Shown here one piece after another: positions 26,454 to 53,614 of a stretch of DNA of 64,000 bases. The DNA is from Vibrio lentus (GTDB lineage Bacteria; Pseudomonadota; Gammaproteobacteria; Enterobacterales; Vibrionaceae): assembly GCF_030409755.1 (NCBI RefSeq), contig NZ_JAUFQE010000002.1:2480001-2544000 (forward strand), read 5' to 3'. Below the pieces are notes generated by a model, which did not search any database, was not told the origin of the DNA, and saw only the letters and a list, made by a program, of their open reading frames with translations. The translations under genes were made by a program, and so were the position numbers. How positions within the stretch are numbered: position 1 is the first letter of the stretch; every line of letters begins with the position of its first letter.

Positions 26454-26470
26454 AATTGGTAATACCAATT
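26454..26470. promoter_or_regulatory. PdhR operator (proximal)
   Basis: AATTGGTAATACCAATT is a perfect 17-bp palindrome matching the PdhR consensus ATTGGTnnnACCAAT. It sits 15 bp downstream of the proposed -10, at the transcription start side, as in the E. coli pdh promoter. Confidence 0.9.
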
Positions 26471-26484
26471 TTAAGTTGGGCAGA

Positions 26485-26513
26485 AATTAACATAATTAAA
26501 ACGCCACTGTCCA
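26485..26513 (-). promoter_or_regulatory. Candidate pdhR promoter
   Basis: On the minus strand TGGACA (26508-26513), a 17-bp spacer and TTAATT (26485-26490), just upstream of the perfect PdhR operator. Confidence 0.5.
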
Positions 26514-26590
26514 GTCTAAAGTTGACCTGCATCATAGAACGCAGTGTGAATTAACCACGATTTAACAAATGAGATTTAAAACAGCAACCA

Positions 26591-26607
26591 AATTGGTCTT
26601 ACCATTT
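26591..26607. promoter_or_regulatory. Second PdhR-type operator (distal)
   Basis: AATTGGTCTTACCATTT keeps the GGT-nnn-ACC core with one mismatch in the outer arm. It lies 137 bp upstream of the perfect operator, centre to centre (about 13 helical turns). Confidence 0.6.
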
Positions 26608-26906
26608 ACAGGGGTAATACTTTTGGGGAGTATTCGTGCTAGAAAGTTTCAGGATAAAAATGAATTGTTTCAGAAAGATTAGCGCCACTTGATTAAAAAT
26701 CGAACCAAGTGCACATTAGAGGCAGAAATTCTGTTCATAAGTCTTAACATTAGAGCGTTTGATAAGCTCGTCACACTCTCGATTTATTGATGCTCACCGC
26801 CCGACCACTTCCTTTACAAAAGCACAACAAAAATTCACAAACAATTATGCTCATCATTGATTATCTAGAGCCCTTCAATGAGCAAAGCCTTATTGTGAAT
26901 TCGAAT

Positions 26907-27456
26907 TTAGAAGCTCAGTTGACCTTGATATTTCTTCCAATCAAACACCAAACCGGGGTCAGTTTTCCGTAGCGGGGCTATGTATTGATGGCCAGTGATA
27001 CGCTGACGCGTAATCTGCGGGAACGTCGACATCAATGTATTCGTCAATTGAGTCAAAGATTGATATTGCTGCTCGGTATAAGCAACAAAGTCACTGCCTT
27101 CCAATTCAATGCCAATCGAGTAGTCATTACACCTTTCACGGCCAGAAAAGCTCGATTGACCCGCATGCCAAGCTCGGTCTAAGAAAGAAACGAACTGCAC
27201 CACTTCCCCATCGCGACGAATCAAGCAATGTGCCGAAACGCCCATTTGATGAACCACCTTAAAAAACGGATGCTCAGCGGGGTCGAGTTTTCCCGTAAAA
27301 AAACTGTTCGATGTAAGGCCCACCAAATTGACCCGGTGGTAAACTGATATTGTGAACCACCAGCAAAGAGATATCGTCCCCCTTTGGCCTTGCATCAAAA
27401 TAAGGGGAAGGAACATGCCGAGCGTTGTCATACCATCCGTTGGAGCTGATCGTCAT
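26907..27456 (-). pseudogene. ampD: N-acetyl-anhydromuramyl-L-alanine amidase AmpD, split by a frameshift
   Basis: AmpD cleaves anhydromuropeptides during wall recycling, and its loss derepresses AmpC-type beta-lactamases. Reading from ATG 27456 gives the AmpD N-terminus (GWYDNARHVPSPYFDARP, SLLVVHNISLPPGQFGGPYIEQFF) with the first zinc His in VVHN. The frame then breaks at the seven-base A run 27297-27303. The remainder (TGKLDPAEHPFFKVV, VSAHCLIRRDGE, GRERCNDYSIGIELEG, DPGLVFDW) continues in another minus frame to 26907. With six bases in the run the product would be 182 aa, matching E. coli AmpD (183). A natural mutation, slippage-based switching or a sequencing error are all possible. Confidence 0.88.
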
Positions 27457-27509
27457 CTTAGTCTCACTTTCTTTTCTGCTAGCACAATAAGATGTGACCT
27501 TGCCCATAG

Positions 27510-28481
<972 letters not shown>

Positions 28482-28735: not shown

Positions 28736-29146
28736 ATGAATAACAAAAGTAAAAGAACAAATCAGAAAGGTTTCACGCTAATTGAGTTGATGATTGTAGT
28801 AGCCGTGATTGGGGTTCTTTCTGCTATTGCGGTACCTCAATATCAAGATTACGTAAAGAAAAGTGCTTTGGGTGCAGCTTTAGCTTCCGTAACTGCATAT
28901 AAAACAAATATCGAAGATTCAATCGCGTTTGAAAATGAATTCCCGGCAATTTCAGCCGCATTTGGTATTGGTACTATTAACTCTACATCTGCCGCGATCA
29001 CAACAACCGGACAAAACACAATAGTTGCAACAGTCACCGAAGGCGCAGGGGAAAATGCCACTGTAACGTTAACTAGACAAAATGCTACCGGCGAATGGTC
29101 ATGTGCCCATAACCAAAGCCCAATTAATTTAACAGGTTGCTCATAA
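28736..29146 (+). CDS. pilA: Type IV pilin PilA (major subunit)
   Basis: A 136-aa prepilin. A basic leader ([12 protein letters not shown]) is cleaved by PilD before Phe13 in the canonical [21 protein letters not shown]; Glu at mature position 5 is present, and the hydrophobic N-terminal helix follows. The C-terminus has a Cys pair (WSCAHNQ ... LTGCS) that should form the D-region disulfide. The variable middle is short and rich in Thr and Ala. First gene of pilABCD. In vibrios the ChiRP/PilA pilus serves chitin binding and DNA uptake. Confidence 0.95.
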
Positions 29147-52157: not shown

Positions 52158-52234
52158 TGGTGCGCCCTGGAGGATTCGAACCTCCGACCGCCTGGTTCGT
52201 AGCCAGGTACTCTATCCAGCTGAGCTAAGGGCGC
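52158..52234 (-). tRNA. tRNA-Arg(ACG), copy 1
   Basis: 77 nt with encoded CCA; acceptor GCGCCCU/AGGGCGC, anticodon ACG in GGCTACGAACC (wobble A becomes inosine and reads CGU, CGC, CGA). Last gene of the array in transcription order. Confidence 0.98.
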
Positions 52235-52322
52235 AACGGTTTCGATATTGAACTGTTAGTTAAGGCAATAAAGCAGTTAAAACTAAACATTCAACATCAG
52301 GATTAATGAAAACCCTAAATAG

Positions 52323-52399
52323 TGGTGCGCCCTGGAGGATTCGAACCTCCGACCGCCTGGTTCGTAGCCAGGTACTCTATCCAGCTGAGCTAAGGGCGC
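52323..52399 (-). tRNA. tRNA-Arg(ACG), copy 2
   Basis: Identical in sequence to copy 1; spacer of 88 bp to copy 1. Confidence 0.98.
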
Positions 52400-52470
52400 A
52401 ACGGTTTCGATATTAAGCATAAAGTTAAAACTAAACGTTTAACATCAGGATTAATGAAAACCCTAAATAG

Positions 52471-52547
52471 TGGTGCGCCCTGGAGGATTCGAACCTCCGA
52501 CCGCCTGGTTCGTAGCCAGGTACTCTATCCAGCTGAGCTAAGGGCGC
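52471..52547 (-). tRNA. tRNA-Arg(ACG), copy 3
   Basis: Identical to copy 1; 71-bp spacer to copy 2, a shorter version of the same spacer. Confidence 0.98.
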
Positions 52548-52618
52548 AACGGTTTCGATATTGAGCATAAAGTTAAAACTAAACGTTCAACATCAGGATT
52601 AATGAAAACCCTAAATAG

Positions 52619-52695
52619 TGGTGCGCCCTGGAGGATTCGAACCTCCGACCGCCTGGTTCGTAGCCAGGTACTCTATCCAGCTGAGCTAAGGGCGC
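52619..52695 (-). tRNA. tRNA-Arg(ACG), copy 4
   Basis: Identical to copy 1; 71-bp spacer to copy 3. Confidence 0.98.
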
Positions 52696-52783
52696 AACGG
52701 TTTCGATATTGAGCTGTTAGTTAAGGCAATAAAGCAGTTAAAGCTAAACGTTCAACATCAGGATTAATAAAAACCCTAAATAG

Positions 52784-52860
52784 TGGTGCGCCCTGGAGGA
52801 TTCGAACCTCCGACCGCCTGGTTCGTAGCCAGGTACTCTATCCAGCTGAGCTAAGAGCGC
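52784..52860 (-). tRNA. tRNA-Arg(ACG), copy 5, acceptor-stem variant
   Basis: As copy 1 except base 5, which is U instead of C (GCGCUCU), giving a U5-G68 wobble pair in the acceptor stem. Still foldable. 88-bp spacer. Confidence 0.96.
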
Positions 52861-52948
52861 AACGGTTTCGATATTGAGCTGTTAGTTAAGGCAATAAAGC
52901 AGTTAAAACTAAACATTCAACATCAGGATTAATCAAAACCCTAAATAG

Positions 52949-53025
52949 TGGTGCGCCCTGGAGGATTCGAACCTCCGACCGCCTGGTTCGTAGCCAGGTA
53001 CTCTATCCAGCTGAGCTAAGGGCGC
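52949..53025 (-). tRNA. tRNA-Arg(ACG), copy 6
   Basis: Identical to copy 1; 88-bp spacer to copy 5. Confidence 0.98.
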
Positions 53026-53095
53026 AACGGTTTCGATATTGAGCATAAAGTAAAACTAAACATTCAACATCAGGATTAATGAAAACCCTAAATAG

Positions 53096-53172
53096 TGGTG
53101 CGCCCTGGAGGATTCGAACCTCCGACCGCCTGGTTCGTAGCCAGGTACTCTATCCAGCTGAGCTAAGGGCGC
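53096..53172 (-). tRNA. tRNA-Arg(ACG), copy 7
   Basis: Identical to copy 1; 70-bp spacer to copy 6. Upstream spacer toward the tRNA-Ser is different. Confidence 0.98.
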
Positions 53173-53257
53173 ACGGTATCTTCAAGTGAAGAAGTTGTGA
53201 AATATATCACATTCTTGTTTCTACGAAACAAAAAAAAGGCCATAGGCCTGTAATGAA

Positions 53258-53350
53258 TGGCGGTGAGGGAGGGATTCGAACCCTCGATGCGGCTACAAAC
53301 CACATACTCCCTTAGCAGGGGAGCGCCTTCGGCCACTCGGCCACCTCACC
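53258..53350 (-). tRNA. tRNA-Ser(GCT), copy 1
   Basis: 93 nt with long variable arm and encoded CCA; anticodon GCU in CCCCTGCTAAGGGAG reads AGC/AGU. D-loop GAGTGGCC, differing by one base from copy 2. Confidence 0.97.
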
Positions 53351-53398
53351 TAATTCATTATTCTTATCCATTACTTCTTAACAAAGTAATCTAAAGAA

Positions 53399-53475
53399 TG
53401 GTGCGCCCTGGAGGATTCGAACCTCCGACCGCCTGGTTCGTAGCCAGGTACTCTATCCAGCTGAGCTAAGGGCGC
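53399..53475 (-). tRNA. tRNA-Arg(ACG), copy 8
   Basis: Identical to copy 1, but lying between the two tRNA-Ser genes, so a Ser-Arg pair was duplicated as a unit. Confidence 0.98.
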
Positions 53476-53521
53476 ACATTGTTACTTCTGTGTTTGCTTG
53501 CAAATTCAAACGTGCAAGAAA

Positions 53522-53614
53522 TGGCGGTGAGGGAGGGATTCGAACCCTCGATGCGGCTACAAACCACATACTCCCTTAGCAGGGGAGCGCCTTCGGCCTC
53601 TCGGCCACCTCACC
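53522..53614 (-). tRNA. tRNA-Ser(GCT), copy 2
   Basis: 93 nt; D-loop GAGAGGCC like E. coli serV. First gene of the array, directly behind the promoter at 53630-53657. Confidence 0.97.

Follow-up and report, generated by a model that had tools for sequence, protein, structure and literature searches.

Mutations in ampD, the gene for the amidase AmpD (1,6-anhydro-N-acetylmuramyl-L-alanine amidase; family model NF008758, solved structure 1j3g), are described in Enterobacter hormaechei (PMC10266578) and in Burkholderia multivorans (PMC6300292) exposed to beta-lactams, and in the passages of the two papers that treat them they act through a beta-lactamase. The same gene is affected in the Vibrio lentus genome analysed here, but a search here turned up no class C enzyme and nothing clear of class A or D, and no selection on it is known. 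A second precedent is the indel error of long-read sequencing: the passages of PMC12007338 on nanopore reads tie deletions to runs of one base, and insertions less so. The split in the V. lentus gene resembles such errors in being a one-base change of run length that breaks a conserved gene, but it differs from them in the low rate of breaks in the assembly and in its direction, the run being too long whereas nanopore errors are mostly deletions.

A one-base split in ampD

The window, a stretch of 64,000 nucleotides (G000:C2:2480001-2544000), belongs to a 5.9-Mb Vibrio genome in three contigs (termed here G000; completeness 99.97, contamination 0.39). On its minus strand, an AmpD reading starts at about position 27456, keeps one frame as far as a plus-strand run of seven A at 27297-27303, which is T on the gene strand, and beyond it extends in another frame to 26907, the frame changing at a conserved Phe-Phe site. 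The pieces and their neighbours, which we take from their sequences to be nadC-like and pdhR-like genes, are as follows:

27274..27507, minus strand: N-terminal AmpD piece, an ORF of 77 aa whose AmpD-like part begins at about 27456 (NF008758, 71.3 bits, profile positions 3-59)
26907..27431, minus strand: C-terminal AmpD piece, an ORF of 174 aa (NF008758, 214.7 bits, profile positions 53-182)
27534..28481, plus strand: nadC-like ORF of 315 aa, divergent neighbour, in the same order in the closest relative, L033
25662..26468, minus strand: pdhR-like ORF, downstream neighbour, likewise in the same order in L033

Both pieces thus match the AmpD model, and both match the structure, in a gene order shared with L033; what differs is that the G000 reading falls into two frames at a single run. 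The curated cut-off of NF008758 (143 bits) is exceeded by the C-terminal piece, the first ~40 residues of which are an out-of-frame reading, and the N-terminal piece alone falls short of it. Aligned to 1j3g, the N-terminal piece covers residues 4-58 and the C-terminal piece residues 48-176, so that the position of His34 lies on the former and those of His154, Lys162 and Asp164 lie on the latter. We take His34, His154 and Asp164 to be the zinc-site residues of AmpD, with His34 as a ligand, and likewise assume a role for Lys162. The three zinc-site residues do not occur together in one polypeptide and, as the gene is written, neither piece would have the whole zinc site.

The frameshift is present in the given sequence, and an earlier note on this DNA, which had placed a break between two frames of ampD at this A run, was correct in that the NF008758 matches of both pieces meet there. 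Its statement that the rest of the gene looks undamaged also stands: outside the split, the gene is conserved, and of the codons that differ from L033, 24 are synonymous and 7 change the amino acid. Codon changes assigned to the branch of the window comprise 1 synonymous and 2 non-synonymous, with 16 more that could not be polarised, too few to judge selection.

Between ampD and the pdhR-like gene (26469-26906) there is no ORF of at least 100 aa, and ampE is therefore absent from beside ampD; in Escherichia coli, the gene order is ampDE. Elsewhere in the window, tRNA genes, eight of them tRNA-Arg (ACG) and the other two tRNA-Ser (GCT), are arrayed on the minus strand within ~1.5 kb (52158-53614). 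An ORF at 28736-29146 (plus strand), presumably type IV pilin-like, has no DNA match over ~28864-29137 in six relatives (L035, L039, L041, L042, L045 and L033 itself), and L044 (V. crassostreae 9ZC13) aligns without a break at 92%, which gives the pilin gene a mosaic appearance.

ampD in relatives and in public sequences

Alignment of the locus with related DNA gave 93 rows, of which 2 are the window's own locus, 5 end short of the run and 86 reach it. Over a 41-base stretch, 83 of these 86 rows show the relative to be shorter by exactly one base, and they represent fewer distinct genomes since some are the same genome reached by two routes; in the remaining three (L027, L071 and L074), the aligner placed additional gaps close by. 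The closest relative, L033 (V. lentus 10N.261.46.F8, 93.4% identical), is the sole other V. lentus in this comparison and encodes an AmpD of 182 aa in a single frame. The comparison of run lengths in related ampD genes that the earlier note had called for accordingly leaves the window with the longer run.

Across a draw of 148 genomes from the genus, AmpD scores above the cut-off in 144. In five genomes (G000, G010, G085, G144 and G165), the best AmpD match leaves part of the model uncovered, and a sixth, G065, has a late start and an extra stop. At the DNA level, none of the five loci outside G000 breaks at the window's run: ampD in G165 and G010 breaks at the second conserved Phe-Phe pair, and in G085, G144 and G065 it breaks elsewhere. 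Completeness and contamination of the other four genomes with partial matches are 95/5, 94/7, 79/7 and 99/4, and several genomes with similar contamination values keep an intact ampD. Two of these four were tested for split genes, of which, with ampD included, there were 33 of 85 in G010 and 4 of 62 in G165.

A protein search with the N-terminal piece returned 27 public proteins of similar short length, which we aligned to the L033 AmpD; they are known from protein only, and some of them end with their contig. Two (P0010 and P0016) leave the AmpD frame just after the first Phe-Phe pair, the break point of the window, and five (P0005, P0006, P0008, P0009 and P0018) leave it at the second, so that 7 of the 27 N-terminal fragments break at one or the other conserved pair. 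These fragments show the T-rich Phe-Phe pairs to be recurrent break points in public sequence, whether through error or mutation. The corresponding search with the C-terminal piece considered the best 120 of 8000 scored matches, with strains not separated.

We asked what codon use predicts for the T-runs by surveying 107 distinct ampD sequences at columns with at least 20 Phe codons. At every such column TTT is the usual Phe codon (0.69-0.95). The first Phe-Phe pair, at the break, reads TTTTTT in 49 of 78 sequences against ~0.57 expected from its two columns, and the second does so in 52 of 86 against ~0.56 expected; at neither pair is the run kept beyond the expectation from codon usage. In the long ORFs of the genome, TTTTTT is less common and encodes 31 of 298 Phe-Phe pairs. 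The ampD gene does not avoid such T-runs as other genes do, and its own codon use accounts for them.

Other split genes and two assemblies of the plasmid

To place the split against the rest of the chromosome, we compared 780 kb around ampD in G000 with the complete relative G017, using comparable ORFs of at least 150 aa. In G000, 485 of 489 such ORFs lie in a single frame and four are split: ampD, a dprA-like gene, a Kef-like gene and the homologue of a 377-aa G017 ORF. In the reverse direction, 491 of 492 ORFs lie in one frame, the exception being the shifted ampD ORF serving as query. Only two of the four G000 breaks are one-base changes, those in ampD and in the dprA-like competence gene (G000:C2:3069771-3070408), the latter not within a long run; of 8 genomes, 7 exceed the cut-off of the dprA model, and the gene is split in G000 alone. 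The transporter gene at G000:C2:2733266-2735115, which we take to be Kef-like, is split by a tandem duplication of ~50 bases, and the homologue of the 377-aa ORF (G000:C2:2697507-2699259) is interrupted by an insertion of ~617 bp; this insertion and the duplication look biological. Among the four, ampD alone breaks at a long run.

A looser test (ORFs of at least 80 aa, with a stricter coverage rule) gave 5 frameshift candidates in G000 against 7 in G017. One of the five is ampD, and the DNA was inspected for the other four in G000; those of G017 include a 447-aa ORF with its first 47 residues in another frame in G017. One G000 candidate, in the first 400 kb, was rejected because it falls in 5S rRNA DNA; another, in a 99-aa ORF, was set aside as a doubtful gene, yet it also has a small length change. 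Internal stops close to ORF ends were taken for differences of start or end. The 336 coding runs of at least 6 bases yield no slip rate, as by construction they lie inside in-frame stretches.

The third contig of G000, a plasmid of 251,448 bp, matches NZ_AP025501.1 (V. lentus LMG 21034 p1, 251,461 bp) along its whole length, and the first 20 kb show 0 substitutions and 1 gap. Judged by this match, G000 is probably LMG 21034, which we take to be the type strain of V. lentus, or a culture of it; a literature search found no paper naming both Vibrio lentus and LMG 21034. Of 17 substitution events, seven lie in two HipA copies, seven in an EAL gene that is present a second time, and three in a peptide synthetase. 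We take them for repeat effects, which for the peptide synthetase is an assumption.

As assemblies of one strain's plasmid, the G000 contig and NZ_AP025501.1 also disagree in length, at three internal sites, two of them in listed genes, and by two extra bases at the end of the G000 contig. At a T6/T7 run, a DUF3307 ORF has 251 aa in NZ_AP025501.1 and, via another start, 240 aa in G000; the domain begins at residue 7, so the shortening reaches into it, and which assembly is correct is not certain since the ORF is shortened and not destroyed. At the other genic site, a two-base difference leaves one of three ltrA copies as two ORFs in G000 only; a caution here is that the copy is a repeat, and repeats are more prone to error than unique sequence. 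At both, the gene is longer in NZ_AP025501.1. The third site is a poly-G tract outside the listed genes (G000:C3:232256), the length of which differs by ~12 bases between the assemblies. We count one of the genic differences as a clear error and the other as a probable one, in 251 kb. At one to two events per 251 kb, about three to six would be expected in 780 kb, where two one-base breaks were observed, and this rate is enough to account for both, with the qualification that it rests on small numbers and on one repeat site.

Beta-lactamases, wall recycling and the origin of the split

The beta-lactamase search covered classes C, A and D. Family PF00144 gave two matches, a 480-aa protein scoring 19.8-25.2 bits on class C models with cut-offs of 680-875, and another of 23.9 bits, under the Pfam cut-off; by the models used, the G000 genome has no class C beta-lactamase. 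The one match to PF13354 (36.6 bits; cut-off 22) lies in a 402-aa frame common to all eight genomes, which we take for a carboxypeptidase, and the class A-like gene of 129-131 bits that is clear in 3 of 7 relatives is absent from G000 in this family. All five PF00905 matches lie in frames that, at 593-858 aa, exceed the size of a class D enzyme, and no class D-sized frame of this family was found in G000. The derepression of AmpC that the earlier note had linked to AmpD loss is thus not supported by the search of these classes. Its proposal to look elsewhere for ampC or a second AmpD yielded, besides the missing class C enzyme, a second Amidase_2 gene without an NCBIfam match as scanned; its neighbour, holin-like but matched to no confirming family, gives it a phage-type look. 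AmpG (401 bits) and NagZ (471 bits) are intact.

We consider the split to be probably a residual one-base length error in this V. lentus assembly: the bases of the run at the conserved Phe-Phe codons were probably miscounted, and AmpD is probably ordinary in the organism itself. A length error is the likeliest account because the plasmid assemblies differ in length within two genes, each of which is longer in NZ_AP025501.1, from which we infer that G000 is the assembly in error there and that the split on the chromosome arose in the same way. The sequencing error that the earlier note had named as its own refuting case has in this way become the leading explanation. Against it stands an assembly that is otherwise clean, as its completeness and its 485 unbroken ORFs attest, and in which some breaks have a biological look. 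The same observations speak for a genuine loss of ampD through a recent slippage mutation in this strain, perhaps during culture, which we hold to be possible and the less probable of the two: breaks are few, some are insertions or duplications, so that real gene loss does occur, the zinc-site positions fall partly on one piece and partly on the other, and AmpG and NagZ are intact. Slippage would also give the breaks at Phe-Phe pairs in 7 of 27 public fragments, but so would errors; the direction of both genic plasmid differences and the lower quality values of the other four genomes with partial AmpD matches weigh against a mutation. Were the mutation real, peptide removal in the cytoplasm would stop, since neither piece has all the active-site residues, and anhydro-muropeptides would be expected to accumulate after AmpG uptake and NagZ trimming.

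Reversible switching, in which slippage at the run would turn ampD on and off and produce mixed populations, is improbable. The position of the break within a run speaks for it, as do the splits of G165 and G010 at the second Phe-Phe pair and the seven fragments that break at either pair, which lend weak support to the possibility of switching raised in the earlier note. Seven bases is short for phase switching, however, TTTTTT is as frequent at the break as codon use predicts, and ampD is one of many genes that are split in G010 and G165. Moreover, the available assembly data contained neither a strain mixture nor a second run length for the strain. Of 14 papers that mention both ampD and phase variation, ten were listed, and none of their titles concerns ampD switching; no Vibrio ampD appears in the titles found for ampD with Vibrio and frameshift, or with homopolymer and beta-lactamase, and the passages retrieved from PMC11726461 concern other enzymes. 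Scarcely credible is a role for RNA polymerase or ribosome slippage at the run, by which some full-length AmpD would still be made: a U7 run in a transcript is a weak slippage site, but most relatives read ampD in one frame and need no shift. We are also very doubtful of a wider proposition, based on breaks at Phe-Phe pairs in 7 of 27 public fragments and 3 of 144 surveyed genomes, that the T-runs of ampD slip recurrently across gammaproteobacteria and that, through loss and regain of AmpD, marine vibrios change how they recycle and release muropeptides, with no part played by AmpC.

Taken as a whole, the earlier interpretation is partly supported. If the split is a length error, as we think probable, it cautions against taking single-base splits in finished genomes as biology, and comparing the same strain's plasmid across assemblies offers a cheap check. 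If it is real, one would expect anhydro-muropeptides to accumulate and not resistance by way of AmpC; tracheal cytotoxin, such a fragment, signals to the squid host in Vibrio fischeri, according to the passages of PMC6448482 that discuss it. The strain would then be a natural AmpD-null Vibrio without AmpC, and could serve to separate the role of AmpD in wall recycling from its control of beta-lactamase.
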